Translations under genes and position numbers: made by a program
The notes under the pieces: model-generated
The model's input: only the letters and a program-made list of their open reading frames with translations
What the model was told of the DNA's origin: nothing
Database searches by the model: none
Virus record (IMG/VR): IMGVR_UViG_3300032242_001645
Span: 1-39,067 of that record
Length of the DNA: 39,067 bases
Direction: 5' to 3' (one strand)
From: a virus
Shown: piece by piece, positions 3,255 through 39,067 of the stretch
Position numbering within the stretch: position 1 is the stretch's first letter
Layout of the letters: every line of letters starts with the position of its first letter

Positions 3255-4268
3255 TTATAGATGTTTCAAGAAAGGCTTGTCGCTGCTGACACTAGTTTGG
3301 CCAGCTTTGTCGCCTGAACCGGATCCAACTGGTCCAGCAGTCTTGTTGTTACCTGGGTAACCAGAACCTTGCTTGCTTAGAGCGGCTCCATCTTTCATAC
3401 TTGATTTAGAACTGCTAGAGATGTTCTTTTCAACACCTTTAGTGAATTCACCTTTAACACTACCAGCTAAACTGCTAGGATCTGTTTTTGCATTTGGTGA
3501 TGTACCAGTGTTGGAACCAACGCTGCCGTCTTTGCTAGAAATTGGACGAGCGCCGCTTGTTGGCTTTGTTCTGTCTGCATTAGCATTGATTGCGCTCTTG
3601 GTATTTGTACCGCCTGGCATTTTTTCACCAGTGTTAGCACCGGCAATACCGCCTTCGGCAGCACCTTTTTTCTCAGCACCGTGACCATCTTTAACCATCT
3701 CACGATATTCACGAGTGATACGACGACCTTCGTGCATTCCCATCATCATACTTTCGTCTTCATCATTGGAAGGCATATCCATTTTTGGTTTGTCGCTATC
3801 TCCGCCGAAGCTCATTTCATCTCCGCCCATGCCTTTAGATTGCTCTAATTCAGCAAACGCAGCTTCTAATTCAGCAATTGCGGTTTTGATATCCATAATT
3901 GCAGCTTCTTCACCTGCAGGCTCTTCGTCATCCATATCACCAACTTCTTGACCTAATTTACCTGTAGCGTCATCGTCGGTTGTATCAAAACTATCATGAC
4001 CTTCGTCATCAGCTTCCATACTGTAGGAATCTTCTAAATCCATATTTTCTTCAACGGATTCTTCTTGATCTTCTTCTGCTTCTTCAACGGACTCGTCTTG
4101 TTCGTTGTCAGAGGCTTCTTCAACATCTTCTTCTGCTGCTTCTTCAGCGATTAAATTTTCATAGATATCTCTAGATTTTTCAACAACGATTTCGTGGAAA
4201 AGTTCATTGGCTTTATCCATTTCTTCATTGACTAAAAGATCTAAAAGTTGTTCAAATTTTGTAGACAT
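3255..4268 (-). CDS. 67: acidic prohead core protein, gp67-like
   Basis: This 337-residue protein occupies the place of the T4 prohead core genes 67/68, between portal and protease. Residues 1-45 form a helical domain with a pattern (DKANELFHEIVVEKSRDIYENL) reminiscent of the T4 gp67 N-terminus. Residues 43-125 are extremely acidic with long Glu/Asp runs. Residues 125-150 form another helix, and residues 185-337 are a Gly/Ser/Lys/Thr-rich disordered tail. T4 gp67 is only about 80 aa, so this is a large expanded version. It is probably an internal core component packed with gp22 and digested by gp21. The start has AAGGAG 11 bases upstream and a 145-base leader from a late promoter. The gp67 assignment is by position and N-terminal pattern. 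Confidence 0.75.
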   Translation of the reverse strand: MSTKFEQLLDLLVNEEMDKANELFHEIVVEKSRDIYENLIAEEAAEEDVEEASDNEQDESVEEAEEDQEESVEENMDLEDSYSMEADDEGHDSFDTTDDDATGKLGQEVGDMDDEEPAGEEAAIMDIKTAIAELEAAFAELEQSKGMGGDEMSFGGDSDKPKMDMPSNDEDESMMMGMHEGRRITREYREMVKDGHGAEKKGAAEGGIAGANTGEKMPGGTNTKSAINANADRTKPTSGARPISSKDGSVGSNTGTSPNAKTDPSSLAGSVKGEFTKGVEKNISSSSKSSMKDGAALSKQGSGYPGNNKTAGPVGSGSGDKAGQTSVSSDKPFLKHL

Positions 4269-19353: not shown

Positions 19354-20745
19354 ATGTCCATTGAACAAAGAACAAAAGGTAAATTACCAACTCCGGGACC
19401 ATATCTTGCAAAAATTACTAATCATTCAGACCCTACCTATATGGGGGGTCTAGAAGTAGTATTGATGCGAGGAATACCAAACAATAAATTATCCAAAGCT
19501 GATACTTATATTGTTAGATATCTTAATCCATTCTACGGAGTTACATCAAAAGATTTTGAAGGTAATAGTGCTGAAAAATTTGGAGATGTACAAAAAAGTT
19601 ATGGAATGTGGATGATTCCACCAGATATTGGTACCACAGTCATGGTAATATTTGTAGACGGAGATCCCAATCAAGGATATTGGATGGGATGTGTACAAGA
19701 TAGATATCAAAATAATATGCTTCCAGGAATTGCAGCAGACACAAACATTGCTTGGGATACTGGACAAAAAGACAAATATGATACTGATACATTACCTGTC
19801 GCAGAGTTGAATAAAAAAGCTCTAACTGGAAATAATCCTAATGTATCTACTATTAAAAAACCAGTACATCCGTTTGCTGACAAATTATTAGCACAAGGGT
19901 TATTAGCTGACAATGTAAGAGGTATAACATCTAGTTCAGCTAGACGAGAAGCACCTAGTAGTGTATTTGGTATTAGTACACCGGGACCCCTAGATATTAA
20001 TGGTCCAAAAAGATTAATTGGGTATGTTGGGCCAACTTCAGCCGCACAAAAAAGTGTTCCAGTAAGTAGATTAGGTGGTAGTACATTTGTCATGGATGAT
20101 GGTGATTCTAACGGAGATAACGAATTAGTTAGAATTCGTACTAGAACAGGTCATCAAATTTTACTACACAATAGTAATGATTTAATCTACATTGCTAACA
20201 GCAAAGGTACTGCTTGGATTGAATTGACCAGCAATGGCAAGATAGATATATATGCAGCAGATTCTGTAAGTATACATACTCAGGGTGACTTCAATGTATT
20301 AGCTGACAAGAATATTAATTTAGAAGCTGGTGGTAATATAAACATGAAATCTGGAACAGCAATGAACGTACAAGCTGTAGATGGTAAAATTTTATTTACT
20401 GGTACGTATGATCACAAAGTTACAGGCGATATTAAGTTTGCTTCATCATCTAATTTTAATATAAATTCTAATGGTAATAATAATTTTACTTCTTCAAAGA
20501 ATACTAATATATTGAGTGGCGACTCGCATTTTGAAACTGCCGGCGAGATACACATGAATGGTCCAACAGCAGCTACAGCAGAAACCGCATCAGTTGATGT
20601 GTTGCCAACTAAATCATTGCCTAATACTGATATAACTAAACCGTGGAATGGCAAAAATAGATATAAAACTGATCCTATAAATACCATTGTATCCCGTGCT
20701 CCCACACATGAACCGTGGGCAGGTCACGAAGATTTAACAAATTAA
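19354..20745 (+). CDS. 5: baseplate central spike gp5, without a visible lysozyme domain
   Basis: The 463-residue protein has the gp5/VgrG layout. The N-terminal OB-fold lies at about residues 12-125 (GPYLAKITNHSDPTYMGGLEV, then YGMWMIPPDIGTTVMVIFVDGDPNQGYWMG). A loop region follows, then the triple-stranded beta-helix from about 266 (GHQILLHNSNDLIYI, then repeated short strands such as ADKNINLEAGGNINMKSG). T4 gp5 (575 aa) carries a lysozyme domain between these parts; residues 130-250 here show no lysozyme motif (no E-x8-D-x5-T pattern) and are Pro/Ser-rich instead. The C-terminus THEPWAGHE is seen in relatives. No convincing ribosome-binding site precedes the ATG. It forms the membrane-piercing tip below the hub. 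Confidence 0.88.
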   Translation: MSIEQRTKGKLPTPGPYLAKITNHSDPTYMGGLEVVLMRGIPNNKLSKADTYIVRYLNPFYGVTSKDFEGNSAEKFGDVQKSYGMWMIPPDIGTTVMVIFVDGDPNQGYWMGCVQDRYQNNMLPGIAADTNIAWDTGQKDKYDTDTLPVAELNKKALTGNNPNVSTIKKPVHPFADKLLAQGLLADNVRGITSSSARREAPSSVFGISTPGPLDINGPKRLIGYVGPTSAAQKSVPVSRLGGSTFVMDDGDSNGDNELVRIRTRTGHQILLHNSNDLIYIANSKGTAWIELTSNGKIDIYAADSVSIHTQGDFNVLADKNINLEAGGNINMKSGTAMNVQAVDGKILFTGTYDHKVTGDIKFASSSNFNINSNGNNNFTSSKNTNILSGDSHFETAGEIHMNGPTAATAETASVDVLPTKSLPNTDITKPWNGKNRYKTDPINTIVSRAPTHEPWAGHEDLTN

Positions 20746-20758
20746 TCTGAGAACATTT

Positions 20759-21196
20759 ATGCCTTATAAAAATATTGAAATTAATACTGCCAACACTGTA
20801 TATAATCAGGCACCTCAACAAAGTCAATTTTACAAAGGATTTAGCACAGTCGGTGCCACAACTTATGGTAATCAGCTCTACGATTTAAATTTAATTAAAC
20901 AAGATATATTAAATCATTTTAATACCAAAAAAGGTCAACGATTAATGAATCCAGATTTTGGTTGCATTATATGGGATTTATTAATGGAACCAATGACTGA
21001 TCAGGTCAAAGAACTATTAGTAGATGATGTTACTAAAATTTGTAATTTTGATCCAAGAGTAGTACCTACTGAAATAACCTTAAATGAGTATCCCAGCGGA
21101 TATGTTGTAGAACTAACAATACGACTTCGAGACACTGATCAATCATCTTCTATGAAAATGATCTTTGATCAGAAATTAGGGCTAAGTGTACAATAA
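20759..21196 (+). CDS. 25: baseplate wedge subunit gp25
   Basis: This 145-residue protein belongs to the gp25/gpW-type baseplate wedge family (T4 gp25 132 aa). The conserved signature is GQRLMNPDFGCIIWDLLMEP from about residue 59, followed by the helix and sheet of the lysozyme-like fold without catalytic activity. gp25 links the wedge to the tail sheath, the first contact that spreads contraction. It lies between gp5 and gp6. The start is 14 bases after the gp5 stop with only a weak GAG site, so re-initiation is likely. Confidence 0.95.
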   Translation: MPYKNIEINTANTVYNQAPQQSQFYKGFSTVGATTYGNQLYDLNLIKQDILNHFNTKKGQRLMNPDFGCIIWDLLMEPMTDQVKELLVDDVTKICNFDPRVVPTEITLNEYPSGYVVELTIRLRDTDQSSSMKMIFDQKLGLSVQ

Positions 21197-21244: not shown

Positions 21245-24200
21245 ATGATTCCATCAACTAACAGCAAATTACTTGTATCCGAAGATTGGAAAAAAATATA
21301 CCAATCTTTTAAAAACGCGGACTTCAAAAGTTACGATTTTGATACCTTACGTCGAACAATGATTCAATATCTTCAGGAAAATTATCCTGAAGATTTCAAT
21401 GACTTTATTGAAAGCAGCGAGTACATTGCATTAATTGATTTAATTGCTTATCTTGGGCAAAACCTAAGTTTCCGAATTGATTTAAATGCTCGTGAAAACT
21501 TTTTAGAAACAGCTCAACGTCGTGATAGTATTCTACGTTTGGCACAGCTGATTAGCTATACCCCTAAAAGAAATTTACCAGCTAATGGTTTTTTAAAAGT
21601 AACGGCCATTTCTACATCAGATGCTGTAATAGATAGTAATGGTACAAATTTATCTAATATTCCTATTTTATGGAATGACCCTACAAATACAAATTGGTAT
21701 CAACAATTTATTAGCATTATGAATTCTTCCATGTCGGGAAGTTTTTCATTTGGTAAACCTCATGATAGAAAAACCATTGATGGAATACTCACTGAACAAT
21801 ATCGAATTAATAGTTCTAATATAGATGTTCCCATATATACTTTTGCTAAAAGTATAAATGGCACCATAATGAATTTTGAAATTGTTCCGTCATCATTCTC
21901 TAATTCAACTTCTATATATGAAGAAGTTCCTAAACCAGGTACTACTTTTAGTTTTATATATAAAAATGATAATCAAGGCGCCGGAAGTGTAAACACAGGA
22001 TTTTTCACACATTTTCGTCAAGGCTCATTAAGTGGTTCTGATTTTTTTATAGATTCTCCTGTGCCTAACGAAATTGTTGGAGTTAATACTAATAACATCA
22101 ATAACAGTGATGTATGGTTATGGCAACTTGATGCTAATCGTAATTATACAAATCAATGGACAAGAGTATCTGATCTTATAGGCAATAATATTATCTATAA
22201 TAGTATTTCTAATAATAGCAGAAATATATATAGTGTATCGTCTAGAGATAATGATCAAATTGATTTAAATTTTGCAGATGGTAGTTTTGGAAATTTACCT
22301 AAAGGACAATTTAGATTATTTTATAGACAAAGTAATGGTCTAACATATACCATTAAACCACAACAGATGAGTGGTATTGTTGTTGATATTCCATATAAAA
22401 ACAAATTAGGTCAAAGTCATACATTAACAATGACTATGTCTTTGCAATATACTGTTAATAATAGTTCTGGTCCAGAATCTAATGCCAGTATACAAAGTAA
22501 GGCTCCTCAAGCATTCTATGTACAAAATAGAATGGTCACAGGTGAAGATTATAATATTGCACCATTAACTATGAGTAATGATATTCTCAAAGTTAAAAGT
22601 GTAAACAGAGTATCTAGTGGTATTAGTAAGTATTTTGAACTCAGTGATGTTAGTGGAAAATACAGTAAAACTAATATATTTGCCGCCGATGGATTCTTAT
22701 ATAAAAATGTACATGAACAAAATTTTGATTTTGAATTTACTAATCGTAATGAAATTTTTTCAGTGATCAAAGAACAGTTAGAACCAATTATTTCTTTGCC
22801 TGCTCTAAGATCTTTTTACTTTGATCAATATTCTAGACCTAATGTATATACAATATCTGATCCAAAAATAGTTTGGGAACAAGTTAATAAAATTTCTAAT
22901 CAAAGCAGAGGGTATTTTAAAATACCCACCAATCCTGCTGTTCCTATTGTAGTAGGTACTGCTACTGTAAATAATTTTAAATATCTTTTACCTGGATCGA
23001 TGATTAAATTTGTTCCACCAACAGGAAAATATTTTACTTCAGCTGGAAAAATTGTTGCTAATAAAGGTAATTCCACAGTAGATTATATTTGGACAAAAGT
23101 TATACAAGTTATAGGTGACGGTGCAAATTCTGGTGTAGGTGCATTAGATGATGGTACAGGTCCAATAATTTTAAGTAATGTTATAGATAGTTTGGCTATA
23201 CCTGTAGAAATTATTCCAAAATTTGTTAATACTCTTACCTATACATTTGAAAATGAAATAGTAACTCTTTGTTTAAGCAAGAGAAATTTTGGTTTAACCA
23301 TAAATGACAGAACTAGAACTTGGAATATTATATCAGATACTAACATTGATTTAAATAGTCCTTTTAGTTTATTAAATCAAAGTAGTTCATTAAATTCTAG
23401 TAAGGATGCTAGTTGGTTAATAGCATTTACTTGGACAGGTAAAAATTATAGAGTAAGATATAGAATAACTGATTATATATTTGAAAGTGATAAAGAAACT
23501 GCGTTTTTTATAGATAATAATTCTATAAATTATGATTTCATTTCTAATACTGTAATCAAAGATCAGATATCAGTTTTATCTATAAACAATTCAAATACAT
23601 CAACTTCTGTAAGTATAGGTAAAGATTATCGTTGGCAAATTGATGCTCCTGTTGTAGAATCCGATGGTTATTCTGAACCTAAAAAAGTTAAAGTAAGTTT
23701 CTATGATTATAATAATTCTGGACAAATTGATGATCCAGATTCATTTAATAATATAGTACAACCATTAAGTACAAATCTGTCAACACACTATAAAGATAAA
23801 TTTATATATTTTGAAAAATTAGCAGACGGTCTAAGATATAAATTATCTGATCAATCTCAATTTTATACAGCACCCACTCCTGCTGAAGTAATAGGTACTC
23901 CTAATAATGGAGATTTATATTATTTTTATGACCAGTCTTATAATGTAATAAAGAGTTATACAACTGCTGCCATTAGTTCATCTGATCCTTGGGTATATGA
24001 ACCAAACTATTTTGCTTATCCTGGTCGTATTGGATTAAAATTCCATTATGTGCATAACAGCGGAGAAGATAGAAGAATTGATCCTAGTAAGAGTAATATC
24101 ATTGATATCTATCTATTAACATCATCTTACGATACTGAATATAGAACATGGTTAACATCTGGAGTAGGTAACGAACCATTACCACCTACCAGTCAAAGTT

Positions 24201-24670
24201 TAGAACAAAATTTTTCAGGGACATTAGAACCTATTAAAACTATCAGTGATGAGATGATTTTTCAACCTGTTAAATATAAGACATTATTCGGAAGTAAAGC
24301 AGATATAAATTTACAGGCAACATTCAAAGCAGTTAAAAATGCATCTATACCTATTAGTGATAATGAAATTAAAACAAGAATATTAAATGCTATTCAAGAT
24401 TTCTTTTTATTAGAAAATTGGTCTTTTGGGCAATCATTTTACTTCAGTGAATTGTCAACATATGTAATGAATATTATGACACCTGATATAACAAACTTTA
24501 TAATTGTACCTAAGGCAAATAACAATTTTGGAAGTTTATATGAAATTGCCTGTTTAAGCAATGAAATTTTTATTAATGGTGCAACATCAGCGGATATAGA
24601 AATAATTGATGCTATTACTGCTTCTCAATTAAAAACAACTTATACAATAGTAACAAATAGCGGAAATTAA
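21245..24670 (+). CDS. 6: baseplate wedge subunit gp6, enlarged
   Basis: The N-terminal 130 residues are clearly gp6: YDFDTLRRTMIQYLQENYPEDFNDFIESSEYIALIDLIAYLGQNLSFRIDLNARENFLETAQRRDSILRLA-type sequence at about 38-105, the mark of the gp6/gpJ baseplate family. The conserved middle is at about 330-480 (DLNFADGSFGNLPKGQFRLFYRQ, then VQNRMVTGEDYN). The C-terminal dimerisation region is at about 990-1100 (FQPVKYKTLFGSKADINLQATFK, then LLENWSFGQSFYFSELSTYVM). T4 gp6 has 660 aa; this one has 1141, with beta-rich insertions in the second half (about 560-960). gp6 forms the continuous ring that ties wedges together. The next gene begins 2 bases after its stop. Confidence 0.95.
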   Translation: MIPSTNSKLLVSEDWKKIYQSFKNADFKSYDFDTLRRTMIQYLQENYPEDFNDFIESSEYIALIDLIAYLGQNLSFRIDLNARENFLETAQRRDSILRLAQLISYTPKRNLPANGFLKVTAISTSDAVIDSNGTNLSNIPILWNDPTNTNWYQQFISIMNSSMSGSFSFGKPHDRKTIDGILTEQYRINSSNIDVPIYTFAKSINGTIMNFEIVPSSFSNSTSIYEEVPKPGTTFSFIYKNDNQGAGSVNTGFFTHFRQGSLSGSDFFIDSPVPNEIVGVNTNNINNSDVWLWQLDANRNYTNQWTRVSDLIGNNIIYNSISNNSRNIYSVSSRDNDQIDLNFADGSFGNLPKGQFRLFYRQSNGLTYTIKPQQMSGIVVDIPYKNKLGQSHTLTMTMSLQYTVNNSSGPESNASIQSKAPQAFYVQNRMVTGEDYNIAPLTMSNDILKVKSVNRVSSGISKYFELSDVSGKYSKTNIFAADGFLYKNVHEQNFDFEFTNRNEIFSVIKEQLEPIISLPALRSFYFDQYSRPNVYTISDPKIVWEQVNKISNQSRGYFKIPTNPAVPIVVGTATVNNFKYLLPGSMIKFVPPTGKYFTSAGKIVANKGNSTVDYIWTKVIQVIGDGANSGVGALDDGTGPIILSNVIDSLAIPVEIIPKFVNTLTYTFENEIVTLCLSKRNFGLTINDRTRTWNIISDTNIDLNSPFSLLNQSSSLNSSKDASWLIAFTWTGKNYRVRYRITDYIFESDKETAFFIDNNSINYDFISNTVIKDQISVLSINNSNTSTSVSIGKDYRWQIDAPVVESDGYSEPKKVKVSFYDYNNSGQIDDPDSFNNIVQPLSTNLSTHYKDKFIYFEKLADGLRYKLSDQSQFYTAPTPAEVIGTPNNGDLYYFYDQSYNVIKSYTTAAISSSDPWVYEPNYFAYPGRIGLKFHYVHNSGEDRRIDPSKSNIIDIYLLTSSYDTEYRTWLTSGVGNEPLPPTSQSLEQNFSGTLEPIKTISDEMIFQPVKYKTLFGSKADINLQATFKAVKNASIPISDNEIKTRILNAIQDFFLLENWSFGQSFYFSELSTYVMNIMTPDITNFIIVPKANNNFGSLYEIACLSNEIFINGATSADIEIIDAITASQLKTTYTIVTNSGN

Positions 24671-27600: not shown

Positions 27601-30600
27601 CCAGTTAACGGATCTTGGCGTGCAATTTTTAAGAAATTTTACGACACTGATCGTCCTAATACACATCCTTGGGAAATGTTAGGTATTGCAGATAAACCAA
27701 TCTGGTGGGAAAAAACATATGGTGTTGCTCCCTATACAGCAGGCAATGACATATTATGGGATGACATTGAACAAGGATTAAATCGTAATACTGGAAAAGT
27801 AAATCCTGTATATGCTCGACCAGGGTTGCATACAATTTTACCAGTTGATGAAACAGGACACCTAATTGATATTCAATCATTGGTAATAAATTGGACAATA
27901 TATGGACGATATCAATCTTGGAAGTTTGGAGATTATAGTCCAGCTGAAACAGTATGGCGCCGTAGTAGCTACTGGCCATTTGCAGTACAGAGATTATTGG
28001 CATTAACAAAACCTGCCAAGTATGCATCTATAATGTATGATACTAGTAGGATTTCTAAAAATATTGCAGGACAATGGACATATGGTGAAGATCATATTTT
28101 CTTGAATCCTAAAAAATCTGTTATCTATGGTAACGGTGATGAATTGACCAGCGGCTATAGTGTATATATTTTTGAAATAGGTCGTCAACGTACTTCGAAT
28201 TATATCACAGAATTAGTACAAGATCTTTCCTATTTAGATTTTAATTTATTTTATAAAGTAGGCGGATTTGTAAGTAAAGATAAATTACAAGTTGTTATTG
28301 ATGCAATTGATCCTACATCTATTAGTCCCGGTGCATTATTACCACAAGAAGATTATGACCTAATATTAAATACCAGTAATCCAATTAAATCATCAAACAT
28401 TTCTGGTATTATTGTACAGCGTAGTAACGGAAAATTTGTAGTTAAAGGATATGATAGATTAAATCCTTATTTCACTGTATATGAACCTATACGTACTGTT
28501 AATACTTCTGTACTCACAGTGGGTGGCATATCTGAATCTTATGTAACCTGGAATGATAGCACTACAGGTGGTTCAACAGGTCTATCTTCTGTAGACACAA
28601 CTACTGCCAATGTTTCACCTAGCGGTAAATTTTATCAAGCAGGTCAAATAGTATACAAGGATAATAGATTTTTTAGAGTTAAAACTTCTCATCAGAGCGG
28701 CACAACATTTAATACTGCATATTTTCAACCATTGGCAGATTTGCCAACAGTGGGTGGAGCAATTGTACAAATTGCAAATAAATTTGACACCATTGAAAAA
28801 CAAATACCTTACGGTACAGAATATACAACTATTCAAGAAGTCTATGATTTAATAATTGGTTATGGAAAGTGGTTAGAAAGTCAAGGATTTATATTTGATG
28901 AATATAATACAGATTTATCGGCTCCTATTGATTGGAATTTTACAGGCAAAGAATTCTTGTATTGGACTACACAAAATTGGGCAACAAATAGTATTATCAC
29001 ATTAAGTCCTTTTGCTAATCAACTTAAATATCAATTGGCTAATTCTGTAGTAGATAATATTTTTGATAGTTTTTACGAATATAGTATATTACAGGCCAAC
29101 GGCGTTTCGATGCCTCAACAAAATTTAAATATATCTAGAGAAGATGGTGTTTTTACCATACAAACACCTAACTCTACAGATGGTATATATTTTGCAACTA
29201 TTCATTCTGTACAAAAAGAACACGCAATGGTATTCAACAATACCACACGTTTCAATGATACTATATATGACATTGAAACAGGTTATCGCCAATATCGAAT
29301 GAAACTATCGGGGTTCAGAACTGCTAATTGGAATGGTGATTATTTTAGTCCTGGTTTTATCTATGATACTGCACAAATATCTAATTGGCAAAAATATTCT
29401 GAATATCAAATTGGTAATTTAGTAAAATTTAATGGCAATTATTATTCTGCCAATCAAAAAATAGCATCATCGGCTACCTTTAATTTCTCAGAGTGGGATG
29501 TGCTTGGTAGTAAACCAATTGCAGGATTGTTACCTAACTTTGATTATAAAATTAATCAGTTTGAAGATTTTTATAGTTTAGACATTGATAACTTTGATAG
29601 TGCTCAACAGCAGATGGCACAACATTTAATTGGTTATACTCCTCGTGTTTATCTAAATAATATTTTTACTAATCCCATTGCACAATATAAATTCTATCAA
29701 GGATTTATAAAAGAAAAAGGAACTAAAAATTCTATCAGTAAACTGGCCAAAGCTAGTGTACATAATTTACAGGGCGAATTAACTTTTACAGAAGAATGGG
29801 CGTTTCGTATCGGGCAATATGGTTCTTATGAAACATATCAAGAATTAGAAGTTCCTTTAATTGAAGGAACATTTATTGAAAATCCGCAGGTAATTAGTTT
29901 TGTTGATGTTAAACCTCTTCCTTCCCCTAATGACTTAACTTACTATAGTACTGACCGTATTATTACACCTAAAGATTACGTATCATCATCAACCTTTGTA
30001 ACTTCTGATACTGAATTCATGTTGAATACAGCAGGGTATGTGAGAATAGATGATGTTAATTTTACTGCCTATAATGAAATCGATTTAGTAGCTATTGCTG
30101 CTTCTACTGCAATAGTTGAAGGTGATGCAGTATGGTTAGGTTTCAAGAAAGATGGCGGCTGGGATATTTTAAGATATGTAAACTTGCCCGCTAAAATTGT
30201 TGAGGTTATTGTATCAGATGCAGGAGCAGAACTTACCTTTTCTACAAATGATGCACATAAGTTAATTCCTGGCGAAGTTATTTCTATTACTCAGTTCAAT
30301 ACAATTGTCAACGGAGTTTACACTGTTGCAACTGTACCAACTTTAAATACGTTTACAGTAGCATCAACATTATCTGTTATTTCGGATAATACTCCTGCAA
30401 CTCCTGCACAAATATTTAAATTTGAAAGTGCTAAATTTAATAATTTTGATTCATTGCCGTCGGATGATAGTTTACTTAAATCTCCAATTGGTACTAAATT
30501 TTGGGTAAATGATGATGGATTTGGAAAATGGGTAGTTTATGAAAAAACAAAAAATTATTCATCAATATCTAAATATAGTTCTCCAGATTTAAATGGTCAA

Positions 30601-33600
30601 AAATTAGGATGGAGCATAAGTCATAGATATGGTTCTGACATATTTGTTGTTGGTGCTCCGGGTAATTATGAAAATAATAATCAAGGCGGAATATCTGTTT
30701 ACAATAATTCAGATGCTAGACTTAAATTTAAATATACATTAAATCATAATGTATATTATCAAACTACCTCGCCTGATACCCCTAATGAATTTGGATATTC
30801 AGTAGTTTATGATGATCACTTATTTTCTAACAGCGGATACGGATTAATATTTGCTGGAGCTCCTGCTGCTGGAAATATAAGAAGCACTGGTAGTATTGGT
30901 TCTGTTAGAAATGCTTCAAGTGGTGAAGCACCGTCATCATTTGTGCATGAAGGTCTAGTTAAAATTAGCAGCATTGATGCCGAAGCTAATGATGAAAATT
31001 CACGTACATTTGTTCTTTTAAGTCCTAGACCTTCAAGCTATGAAAGATTTGGATCTTCATTATTTGTACAACGTAATGCAGATACAAAATTGTTACTAGT
31101 AGGTGCTCCACAAACAGCAAATACAGGAACTGGCACGGTTTATGCTTTTACAGTTATTACCACAGCTACATCTAATCCTTATTATACTTCAACAACTTTA
31201 CCATTGGTTGATGTAACAACAGCAACAACAGTAATACCTGATGCTGCTATTACACTCGGTCGCGGAAGTCAGTGGGGATATAGTATTGCAGGATCTGACG
31301 ATTCTAAAAATATAGCAATTAGTGCTCCGGGATATAGTTATAGTACAGGTATTGTACAAATATTTTCAGGCACAATATTTAGACAGACCATTCGATCACC
31401 ATATGGAAAAAATTGTAGATTTGGTGAATGTATGGCTATGACTCCTCGTGGTGATTATTTGTTTATTTCTGCACCAAATACTAGAAATGATAATCAATCA
31501 TTTGGCAAAGTAGCAATATATAAGAAAATAAATTCATTGTTTACTTTTATATCAGAAATTTCTAATCCATTATCTAAACCAGGAATGAAATTTGGTATTT
31601 CTCTAAATATTAGTGAATTTGCGGATACTCTAGCTATTTCGTCAATGGGCACTAATACTAAATTGCCTACAACGTTTGATAAAACAAATCTTTCAATTGA
31701 TGCTTTGTCGCAGTTTGATTATAATTCTACAAAATTTTATGATGGAGTTAAATCTAGTGGTACTGTTTATGTTTATAGTAGAAAATTTGATCGATTCTTA
31801 TTAGTTGAAGAATTATATCCTCCACAAACAATAGCCGGTACTAATTTTGGCCGTAGCATATCTGTTGACTCTAATGTTGTTTATGTTGGTGCTCCTGGAC
31901 CAAGTATAGCCACAACTGGAAATAGTGGTCTTCATAAATTTGTGTCAACTACTACTAGTAGTTTAACAACTTTACGTCATCAAGAAAATTTAGTATCGGT
32001 TAATACATTGCAAAAAGTAATGTTAGTTGATTCTTTTAATGAAGAAATTCTAGATTATTTAGATATCATTGATCCATTAAAAGGTAAGATAGGTGGAATA
32101 GCAGATCAAGAATTAAAATATAAAACATCTTTTGATCCTGCTATATATTCAATTGGCAATTCAACAACTGTAAATGATTCTTCTATCAATTGGTTAGATA
32201 ATCATGTTGGAGAATTATGGTGGGATTTAAGTACTGTAAAATATCAATGGTACGAACAAGGTGAATTAACTTTTAGAAAAAATAGTTGGGGAAGATTATT
32301 TCCAGGTTCTACAATTGATGTATATGAATGGGTCAGTACAGAATATCTACCTAGTGAGTGGAATACTCTAGCAGATACCGCAGCGGGTCTAACAGAGGGA
32401 ATTAGTGGAACACCTAAATTTATTGATGACACTGTATATTCTGTTAAACAAACTTATGATGCTACAACTGGTCTTTTTACTAGTCGTTATTACTATTGGG
32501 TAAAAAATAAAATAATAATCCCTAATGTTAAAAATAGAAGACTTAGCAGCTATCAGGTATCTTCTATTATAGAAAATCCTACATCGTACGGATTAAAGTA
32601 TGTTGCCCCTATATCTAAAGATGCTATCATATTATCTAATATTGGATCAGAATTAGTTGCTGATAGAATACACATTAATATTTCCACAGATTCTATTGAT
32701 AATACTATTCCTAAACATACTGAATGGTTATTGTTACAAGAAGGTTCTGCAGAAAGTAGACCTAATACATTACTTGAGAAAAAATTAATTGACAGTTTAA
32801 TTGGTCACGACAGTTTTGGTAATCTAGTTCCAGATCCTACATTATCTTCAAGAATACGTTATGGTATAGGAATTAGACCTCAACAATCATTGTTTAAAGA
32901 TAGAAAAGCAGCATTAAGAAATTTAATAGAATTTACTAATAGTGTATTGATTAAAAATCAAATTACTGGTAATTATGATTTTACTAATTTAAACAAACAA
33001 GATGTTATACCTGATGAATATAGCCATGCCTATGATCAAATTGTAGAAGATAACGAAGGTTTGGCAATTATTGATACTCGACAGCTTGCGTTACCAAAAT
33101 TATCTTGTACAGTAAAAGATGGAAGAATTCGCAGCGTTAGTATTGACAATGTAGGATTTGGTTATAAGGTTGCACCTAGTGTTGAAATTATTAGTCCAGT
33201 AGAATCTACTGCTAAAATTACCACTGAAATTGATTCATCGGGAAGAGTTATTTCTGTTAATATTGCAGATGCGGGAAGTGGATTTCCAGATGATCAACCT
33301 CCTATGTTAAAAGTTCGACCATATACTGTAATCGTATTAGCTGATTCTGTATACAACAATAAATGGACAATTTTTGTTTATGATACTTTAAGAAAAGAAT
33401 GGTTAAGATCTAATACACAAAAATACAATACAACTATGTATTGGAAGTATCAAGATTGGTCTAGTGCCGATTTTAATAAATTTATTGATTATTCAGCATC
33501 AGTGGATGAAATATATGAAATTGATACTGTACCATTATCAATAGGCCAATATATAAAAGTACGTAATGGTGGTGATGGCAGATATATTATATTAGAAAAA

Positions 33601-36600
33601 CTTGCAGCCGGCTCCGCTGGATCATTTAGTGATCAATTCAATATTGTCTATAGTGAAAAAGGTACTATACAGATATTAGATACTATTTGGGATTTTGCCA
33701 ACAATGATTATGGATTTGATTATGTAAACAGTTACGATCAAACACTGTTTGATCAAACACCGGACCTTGAACTTCAATATATTTTGTCTGCACTGAAAAA
33801 AGATATATTCATTAATGAATTAAAAATTAATTGGAATCTTTTCTTCTTTAAAGCAGTAAAATATGCATTGTCTGAACAAAAGTTATTAGATTGGGCATTT
33901 AAAACTTCCTTCATTAATGTAAAGAATTTAGCAGGAACATTGGATCAACGTACTATATATAAAATGCAAAATAGTGAATATTTTGAGAATTATGTAAATG
34001 AAGTTAAACCATATCATACCAGTATAAGAACCTTTACCACGGACTATACAACATTAGAATCATCTAAAACTTATACAACAGATTTTGATTTACCTACGTA
34101 TTATGATAAATCTACTGGTAAATTTATTAATGTTGAATCGAATGATCCGTTATTAGATACATATCCTTGGAAATCTTGGAAAGATAATAACTCTTATTCT
34201 ATTGGAAATATTTCAGTAGGACACGGAGGTAGTGGATATATTAATATACCTAGAGTTGATATAATTCCAGCAGTGGGAGATACAGGAACTGGAGCCACTG
34301 CTGTTGCACATATTAATTCCGGTGTTATATCTAGTATCAATATTGTAAATCACGGGCACGGATATAAAAAAGCTCCGACAATTAATCTTGTAGGCGGAGG
34401 TGAAACAAAACCAGCTGTTGCCTATGCACAGCTTGTAGGCAGCACGGTTCGTACTAATAAGATTGGTATGAAATTTGATAGGACTAATAAGAAAAGTCAA
34501 ATTGGAAATCTATCAGTTACTGATACATTTGTATGCAACGGGTCGGATAATAAATTTGTTTTAAATTGGTTGGCTGAGCCTGATAAATTTAAAATAAATG
34601 TTACACTTGATGGCGGATCTGTTCTACGATCAGATTATACTATTGAATATTATACTGAAATGTATAATGGATATAATAAAAAATTCAATAGAATATACTT
34701 TTTAAATTTTGATCCATTACCAGGACAAGTGCTAAAAGTAACATATATAAAAAATATTGAATTATTAACTGCCACAGAACGTATATTAAATTATTATACT
34801 GCAACATCTGGAATGGTAGGAGTGGATCTACCACAATTAATGGATGGTATAGAATATCCCGATACTGTAATATCTACGTTACCATTGGACTATACTACTG
34901 CCTGGGACATTACGTATACTCCATTTGGAAAATCTGCTTGGGCTGATAATATTTCTTACTATACAAATACCACAATATCTAGTACAGCTACTGCCGGTAC
35001 TAGTACATTGGTATTAACAACTACTACTGGATTAACTGTAGGTCAGCAAGCAAATATCATAGGATCTATTGTTAATAAATTTAGTACAACTACTGACATT
35101 GTCATTACTTCTATTAATACAGCAACAAACACTGTTGGTTTTAGTTCTACATTATCCGGAACAGTATATCCAGGATATGGAATAGAATTCTGGAACTATG
35201 ATGCAAATAATAATGCACTTGATAGTGCCATCGATGGCGGTACTTGGAACACATCGACAAGGATAAATGCTCTAGGTATTAATCCAGAAGATTTAACCAT
35301 TGACGGTGATATATTCTTATCTGCTGCATCAAGTTATGCTCCTGAAGAATTAGTGCCAGGATATGTAACAGAAAGTATAGGTATCAATGTTTATACCAAA
35401 AATCCTCAAGGTGCTCCTATAGTATTTGCTAATGGATTTGATGTACTAGCAGGCACAACTACCACTAACACATTAAGCATGGTTCCTCCTAGTGAAGGAA
35501 ATATAGTCGTTACGTTTGGCGGAAACTTGTTAGATTATACCACAACTACTAATTTTACAACATCAACACAATTTACCATCAATTGGAACACTAATGAAAT
35601 CACAATTCCTCCACAATCTACTAATGGTAGATTAGGGTATACAATATTAGGTATTGGCGGCGGCCGCCTTGAAACTCAGGCCGGTGTAGTTGATTTTGTA
35701 ATTATTACAGATAATACACCTTTTATTCAATTGCAAAGTTTATCAGATTATGGTAGCATTAAGAGTGCATATGTTACAGTAAATGGAAAATCTATTTCTA
35801 AAGTAACAACATCTACTGATTATGGTTATATGTTAACTTATTCTAATGATGATAATAATAGAGCTGCTGTGAATGTTTATAATTTACCTGCTGGCACAAA
35901 TACTGCTCAAGCATGGTTCTTTGCTAATGACTATAAGTATTTTAATGAAGTTAATCAAGAAACTATTCAAGTATTAGATGAAAGAATACAATCATATACA
36001 TTAAGTAACCCTCCGGGCATTGTTGAACCTATGGTAGGTCAGGCTATTGTAGAAGTTAAAGATCCTAGTGGTAGAAGAACTAGACTTTTACCACCATTTA
36101 TCAGTTACTATGATATTACCGGTCCTGCTATCACTACATTTAGAATTGATAATCATAAAGATCATCCAGCTGACACATTTACTATTAATAATGTAAGAGT
36201 TTATGTTAATGGAATTTTATTAAGAGCAGGATTTGATTTCTCAGTGAATTCAATTAATAGTACTGTAAATATAGATCCGGTTGCTCTACAAACAAAAGCT
36301 ACAATAGCTGTTATTGGATTACCAAGGAACAGAGATGTTCCGGTAGGGTATGATTATGATATAATTGGAAATACTTTAATTTTATCAGATCCTCATCATA
36401 TTGATTCTTTAATTCCTAATCGCGGAGTTTATAATGTTATCACATATACCGATCATGATGGTATGTTAATGAGAACAGAAAGATTTGATGGAAATCCAAG
36501 TAGAAGATACAAAATTAGTCGTCCAGTGCTTGATGATAATTATGTTTGGGTGGAATTTAATGGTGTTCCAATAACTAGTAAAACCGATTATGAAATATTA

Positions 36601-37798: not shown

Positions 37799-39067
37799 AT
37801 GACAAAAATTACACAAACTCCGGTATTGACTACCGCAACAGATAATCAAACATATTTGTTGGTAATTGATAATGGTATAATTAAACGATTTAATTATAAA
37901 GCATTTGGTGAACAATTCTCAAATATATCAAGAGGTGATATTGGTTATATGGGTAGTCGAGGTAATCAAGGTTATTCTGGTAGTATTGGTTATCAAGGTG
38001 CCCAGGGAAATACAGGATATATGGGTAGTCAAGGTTCCCAAGGTTTTCAAGGATACAGTGGCAGTATAGGTTATCAAGGAGAACGTGGTGATACTGCCTA
38101 TATGGGCAGTCGGGGTTTTGCAGGATATTTTGGCAGTGTTGGTTTTACTGGTAGTTTAGGATATTTTGGTAGTGTTGGATATGTTGGATCTAAAGGAACA
38201 GATGGAACATCTGTCAATATCAAAGGTGCTGTAGTTAACACTATTAATTTGCCATCAAGTGGAAACACATTAGGGGACTCGTACCTTGTTTCTAGTACAG
38301 GACATCTTTGGATATATTCAGCTGCTTCAACACCAGGTTCAACAAATGGATTTGTTGATGCTGGAGTTCTTCAAGGCCCTCCGGGTTATATCGGCAGTAT
38401 TGGTAGTCAAGGGTACCAAGGAAATCAAGGTTACACCGGATCATTTGGCGTTCAGGGTTATCAAGGCTATCAAGGTTATACTGGATCAATTGGTAACCAA
38501 GGCCTTCAAGGATTCCAGGGAAGTATGGGTTATCAAGGATATGCGGGTAGTTTTGGTGGTCAAGGATTTCAAGGTGATACAGGTTATACTGGAAGTATTG
38601 GCATCCAAGGTAATCAAGGATATACTGGTTCATATGGATATCAAGGTTTCCAAGGTACTAGAGGATCAGATGGCTCTAGTGTCAATATTAAAGGTAATGT
38701 TGTTAATTCATCGGGATTGACTTCAATTGTTAGTCCCGCATTAGGTGACGGATATATTTCTTTAAGTAATGGTCATCTTTGGGTTTATACTAGTACAGGA
38801 TCAGTTAGTGGATTTAATGATGTTGGTACTATTCAAGGTCCTCAAGGCTATCAAGGGTACCAAGGCAATCAAGGTTACACTGGATCATTTGGCGTTCAAG
38901 GATTTCAAGGCTATCAAGGGCAGGGTTTCCAAGGCAATCAAGGCTTCCAAGGAAATCAAGGTACTGGTAATCAAGGTAACCAGGGATTCCAAGGCAATCA
39001 AGGAACTATTGGTGTACAAGGATCAACAAGTTTCACTCCGAGCGTTATTAGTTCAAATGGTTATGTA
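37799..39067 (+). CDS. collagen-like tail fibre/virion protein, N-terminal part
   Basis: The frame opens 2 bases after the gp7-like stop with an AGAAGGA ribosome-binding site and is still open at the window end (423 codons seen). Residues 1-45 are a small N-terminal domain (TYLLVIDNGIIKRFNYKAFGEQF), probably the virion anchor. Three Gly-x-y stretches follow (about 46-137, 198-292 and 351-413), rich in Gly-Tyr-Gln, Gly-Phe-Gln and Gly-Asn-Gln with almost no proline. They are separated by two copies of a globular module that begins GT/SDGT/SSVNIKG and contains GHLW(I/V)Y (from about 138 and 293). The repeats should form a collagen-type triple helix. It is probably a trimeric fibre or head/tail decoration. 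The Gly-x-y phase slips near the end (GYQGQGFQ). Confidence 0.8.
   Translation, partial: MTKITQTPVLTTATDNQTYLLVIDNGIIKRFNYKAFGEQFSNISRGDIGYMGSRGNQGYSGSIGYQGAQGNTGYMGSQGSQGFQGYSGSIGYQGERGDTAYMGSRGFAGYFGSVGFTGSLGYFGSVGYVGSKGTDGTSVNIKGAVVNTINLPSSGNTLGDSYLVSSTGHLWIYSAASTPGSTNGFVDAGVLQGPPGYIGSIGSQGYQGNQGYTGSFGVQGYQGYQGYTGSIGNQGLQGFQGSMGYQGYAGSFGGQGFQGDTGYTGSIGIQGNQGYTGSYGYQGFQGTRGSDGSSVNIKGNVVNSSGLTSIVSPALGDGYISLSNGHLWVYTSTGSVSGFNDVGTIQGPQGYQGYQGNQGYTGSFGVQGFQGYQGQGFQGNQGFQGNQGTGNQGNQGFQGNQGTIGVQGSTSFTPSVISSNGYV

Follow-up and report, generated by a model that had tools for sequence, protein, structure and literature searches.

The locus studied here raises the question of whether a giant protein encoded among phage baseplate genes carries an integrin-like beta-propeller and, if so, what such a domain would do there. 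The window, i.e. the whole stretch of 39,067 nucleotides that was analysed, has as its source record a 39-kb virus contig (IMGVR_UViG_3300032242_001645). The initial annotation had read in it seven successive repeats ending in an AP turn, the sixth degenerate, and had proposed an integrin-alpha-like propeller inside a baseplate wedge protein, possibly involved in receptor binding.

The seven peptides named for the repeats were all found, in order, within the 4374-aa ORF, window 30565-31935 corresponding to residues 1965-2421. The AP dipeptides lie at residues 1995, 2063, 2145, 2218, 2267 and 2407 and the degenerate SM at 2324-2325, the turns being 49-83 residues apart. Of the 9 [GSA]AP triplets that the whole protein contains, 6 lie within the tenth of it that forms the propeller (binomial P 8e-5, calculated post hoc), which argues against chance. 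The degenerate sixth blade is real and conserved, with ISALGxN as the family consensus.

We then investigated the fold. Submitted in isolation, residues 1940-2460 matched the Pfam family FG-GAP_2 (PF14312) with 37.3 bits for a cut-off of 23 (E 3e-9), and the family matched 54 of the 63 aligned members; the full-length protein scored 20.4 bits, below the cut-off, and single repeats score weakly. The AlphaFold2 model obtained with the 63-sequence alignment (pLDDT 89.7, pTM 0.89) exhibits a closed beta-propeller with four strands in each of the seven blades, the degenerate sixth included, the strand register being assigned manually, without coordinates, using the repeat pattern and the DSSP line. 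Blade 6 presents a long B-C loop, partly with a pLDDT under 50. With Foldseek the model matched integrin alpha heads (E 6e-15) with moderate TM-scores of 0.55-0.67, and with VIA-align these heads gave Z 33-36.6 over 355-400 residues, integrin alpha-M reaching Z 36.6 with an rmsd of 3.3 over 364 residues. In the same way, the 63-sequence profile searched against PDB sequences retrieved integrin alpha-4 (E 7.8e-14). The nearest viral structures are giant-virus FG-GAP proteins, some phage proteins coming further down.

The repeats might instead belong to a beta-solenoid or be a chance pattern, and a model built with two sequences was indeed poor (pLDDT 40). However, the deep-alignment model is confident, the PDB matches listed are all propeller-bearing integrins and the FG-GAP_2 cut-off was passed, so that both the solenoid and a chance pattern were rejected as extremely improbable. 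A closed seven-bladed, integrin-alpha-like FG-GAP propeller is therefore strongly supported as the predicted fold, as the initial annotation had proposed. No canonical DxDxDGxxD calcium loop was present in any of the 63 members, hence the earlier remark that Asp-rich calcium loops are not obvious was right; metal sites of another kind may exist.

Features of the window, with the residues of the giant protein where they apply
Feature	Residues	Window position	Strand	Basis or remark
gp5-like hub subunit/tail lysozyme gene		19354..20745	+	phrog_13211, E 9.9e-45
gp25-like baseplate wedge gene		20759..21196	+	PF04965, 43 bits vs cut-off 27
gp6-like baseplate wedge gene		21245..24670	+	phrog_10646, E 5e-286
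ORF of giant virion/baseplate protein, 4374 aa		24673..37797	+	phrog_10938, E 0; holds the propeller
KFWVNDDGFGKWVVYEK, first strand of host hairpin	1942-1958	30496..30546	+	kept with and without propeller
Inserted propeller module	1959-2429	30547..31959	+	absent as a unit in L131
Blade 1, VGAPGNY	1979-2022	30607..30738	+	AlphaFold2 model strands
Blade 2, FAGAPAA	2041-2116	30793..31020	+	AlphaFold2 model strands
Blade 3, LVGAPQT	2126-2186	31048..31230	+	AlphaFold2 model strands
Blade 4, ISAPGYS	2201-2241	31273..31395	+	AlphaFold2 model strands
Blade 5, ISAPNTR	2250-2297	31420..31563	+	AlphaFold2 model strands
Blade 6, degenerate ISSMGT	2307-2381	31591..31815	+	AlphaFold2 model strands
Blade 7, VGAPGPS	2393-2436	31849..31980	+	AlphaFold2 model strands
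Conserved core right after propeller	2436-2743	31978..32901	+	used for relatives and tree

The giant ORF comes directly after the gp5-, gp25- and gp6-like baseplate genes, and genes for the portal, the head protease and the major head protein lie on the minus strand of the window. These hub, wedge and head gene matches indicate a T4-like myophage, with jumbo phages among its relatives, of which the window is a fragment. Homologues of the giant protein were found in PA5oct, Atu_ph07, SCTP-2, 121Q, RaK2 and others, with 25-31% identity over the main segments, and those of PA5oct, Atu_ph07 and 121Q occupy the same position after gp6-like genes, where checked. The place in the baseplate wedge claimed at the outset is thus sustained by gene order, which after gp25 and gp6 is that of T4 gp7, and by the family matches; for the other part of the claim, homology to T4 gp7, no signal was found, a whole-protein profile of 8 sequences having matched, at E values up to 1, no solved structure of a baseplate wedge chain. 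The name gp7 for the giant protein consequently follows from gene order only.

Concerning the virion, the family member PA5oct gp355 is flagged ESI-MS/MS in its own record, and the structural proteome of phAPEC6 includes gp245, of 381.88 kDa, which adjoins the wedge protein gp244 (PMC7247149). Judging from its size and its neighbour, gp245 is probably a homologue of the giant protein. A virion location has good support for the family and indirect support for the phage of the window. Elsewhere in the giant protein, residues 3090-3243 (window 33940-34401), where GxGYxxxP-type stretches occur, match phrog_460 (head closure Hc2). The next ORF (window 37799-39067), which runs off the window end, has five PF01391 stretches and codes for a fibre-like protein with collagen repeats.

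Comparison with relatives that have no insert, which had been suggested as the way to find the borders of the domain, indeed delimited it. In many propeller-less relatives the conserved core is immediately preceded by a short hairpin with the pattern WVD..G.W.VYK-turn-W...R.Q..VD, which was read by eye, a regular expression being too loose for counting. The propeller clade includes one phage, L131 (353-kb contig), in which window residues 1959-2429 are gone and the ORF is still open, the three residues of the short turn being placed arbitrarily inside this gap. No propeller was detected elsewhere on the 353-kb contig, in which the profile finds the conserved flank only. As the relatives keep the hairpin and L131 is without residues 1959-2429, the propeller is a module inserted into the turn of an older hairpin. 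The borders are slightly wider than first noted, with the module, of about 470 residues, at 1959-2429 and propeller strands extending to about 2436. Blade 7 takes its final strand (about 2430-2436, LTTLRH in the window protein) from the older hairpin, of which it was the second strand. In the alignment with the window protein, residues 3576-3974 (window 35398-36594) form a second block absent from L131.

Other phages present other sequences at this site. Atu_ph07 and Phosso have about 1500 aa of different sequence between the same anchors, and Pfam recognised no family in the replaced region of PA5oct, SCTP-2, 121Q and a Vibrio phage; the SCTP-2 segment, which by eye had seemed LamG-like, found no Pfam support.

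Using three scans of viral contigs together with reference phages, copies being removed, we collected 188 proteins with the conserved core. By profile, 120 carried the propeller, 64 did not and 4 were cut short. Five of those counted as propeller-less (L124, L159, L168, L246 and L247) were wrongly classed, divergent FG-GAP-like blades with inserts being readable by eye, which brings the propeller to about 125 of the 188. A quick, midpoint-rooted tree built from 164 core-domain rows contains a branch with SH-aLRT 100, on one side of which stand the 104 propeller rows, all of them, together with six others. Five label changes suffice on this tree, the exceptions being mostly misclassified rows and L131. 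The module occurs widely among uncultured jumbo phages, and within one large clade it is almost fixed. Its acquisition was probably a single event in the ancestor of this clade, and at least one lineage has since dropped it; gain as against loss is inferred, since the tree is quick and midpoint-rooted. By tblastn no isolate of the phage collection searched carries the propeller in the giant gene, and its sole match there was to another protein, in Sinorhizobium phage Phosso. Looking for hints of the host, a scan of bacterial genome contigs gave no relative; a plasmid search gave one weak match.

Among six relatives the mean identity of the propeller is 36%, compared to 57% and 61% for its flanks. 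Over 62 relatives the near 5' flank and the propeller show 41% and 37%, respectively, the propeller being slightly more variable, and residues 3151-3300 and 3751-3900 change as fast as the propeller. At the most conserved propeller positions, structural residues such as G, P, W and F predominate. No hypervariable binding face was found: the mean entropies of the four loop types all lie within 2.35-2.47 bits, and as the two faces vary evenly, neither is singled out for binding. Propeller loops of relatives carry inserts, after residue 2164 in 9 members (up to 139 aa, in the C-D loop of blade 3) and also after residues 2287 (141 aa), 2387 (121 aa) and 2413 (86 aa), these points lying at about 31164, 31533, 31833 and 31911 in the window.

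Since the module sits in the hairpin turn of a protein of a virion family, its surface exposure is likely. The hairpin turn would face outwards and expose the propeller at the wedge surface of the baseplate, where it would serve as a platform for adhesion or docking, with no enzymatic role. During adsorption it would most likely grip a glycan or a protein of the host surface, no calcium being held in canonical FG-GAP loops. The virion family, the hairpin-turn site, the faster change, the loop inserts and the precedents of other propellers together favour such an exposed adhesion or docking domain, acquired once and lost in at least one lineage, and we consider this the probable explanation. 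Between the two uses, binding of a host receptor is plausible and likelier than docking of a phage fibre. More tentatively, the integrin-type propeller could be, throughout the clade, a fixed receptor platform of first contact, set in the wedge apart from the tail fibres, gained a single time and with its loops decorated later.

The main alternative, somewhat unlikely, is that the propeller acts inside the virion as a socket for a tail fibre, a whisker or a neighbouring wedge, and not on the host. The gene next to the giant ORF does encode a collagen-repeat fibre-like protein, and long collagen-like repeats lie downstream of 31 of 94 propeller loci compared to 5 of 44 others. However, three sisters of L131 (L058, L059 and L075) have the propeller yet lack collagen repeats in the downstream 4 kb, so that a collagen partner is not obligatory; moreover, the loss of the propeller in L131 argues against an essential joint. 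This dispensability also fits a structural ornament instead of an adhesion domain. That the propeller is an enzyme, for instance a glycan-cleaving one like sialidases, is very improbable: some phage tail propellers are enzymes, such as the endosialidases (PMC4901313), but the best matches listed here are without exception heads of integrins, whose fold family is non-enzymatic, and there is no conserved acidic or histidine catalytic-like set apart from D2349.

The propeller module can be compared with known systems. With the integrin alpha head, the phage propeller model (Z 33-36.6, as given above) has in common the fold, the seven blades and the repeat order with FG and GAP-like turns. It differs by an identity of 16-21%, by the absence of canonical calcium loops and by its position inside a phage protein, for which neither a beta-subunit partner nor legs or a membrane anchor are known; a full-length profile search gave no integrin match outside the propeller, and the protein is not classed here as an integrin. 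FG-GAP_2, known from bacteria and giant viruses, is the sequence family that the region matches, and there are structural matches to giant-virus FG-GAP proteins, but the repeats are here embedded in the hairpin turn of a phage baseplate-region protein. The C-terminal propeller of phiKZ gp131 (PDB 4GBF) is seven-bladed, lies at the periphery of a jumbo-phage baseplate and was proposed to be a receptor binder (PMC4901313). It is, however, a domain of another protein and is likened here by description, 4GBF not being among the matches listed. The receptor-binding protein Gp45 of phi11 also presents a beta-propeller platform in a host-recognition baseplate (PMC4901313), but one that is five-bladed and trimeric, in a separate siphophage protein. 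The giant gp7-position proteins of 121Q/RaK2, PA5oct and Atu_ph07 share family and gene order but have no propeller at its site, which is occupied by a short hairpin or small segment in 121Q/RaK2 and PA5oct and, in Atu_ph07 as in Phosso, by the long segment described above.

Propellers at phage baseplates are therefore already known from phiKZ gp131 and phi11 Gp45, and what is new is an integrin-like propeller within a wedge-linked giant protein; in the library searched, no paper joins FG-GAP with jumbo phages, or with phages and the baseplate. Swaps of phage adhesin domains are usually described in fibres, and here an adhesion-type fold is found inside a baseplate-linked giant protein. Most virion proteins of jumbo phages have no known role, and the clean natural deletion in L131 gives exact borders for asking whether their wedge proteins touch the host.

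FG-GAP folds or repeats are also present in Atu_ph07 gp320, Phosso gene 108 and cyanophage S-TIM5 H6WG31, but in separate genes. Phosso gene 108 (L004, 6339-16819) exhibits 24 FG-GAP_2 stretches with 563 bits, and FG-GAP repeats also occur in three further frames of this phage, one long and two shorter. Atu_ph07 gp320 (L261, 3019-4200), annotated as a hemagglutinin, matches the FG-GAP propeller and adjoins tail sheath genes.
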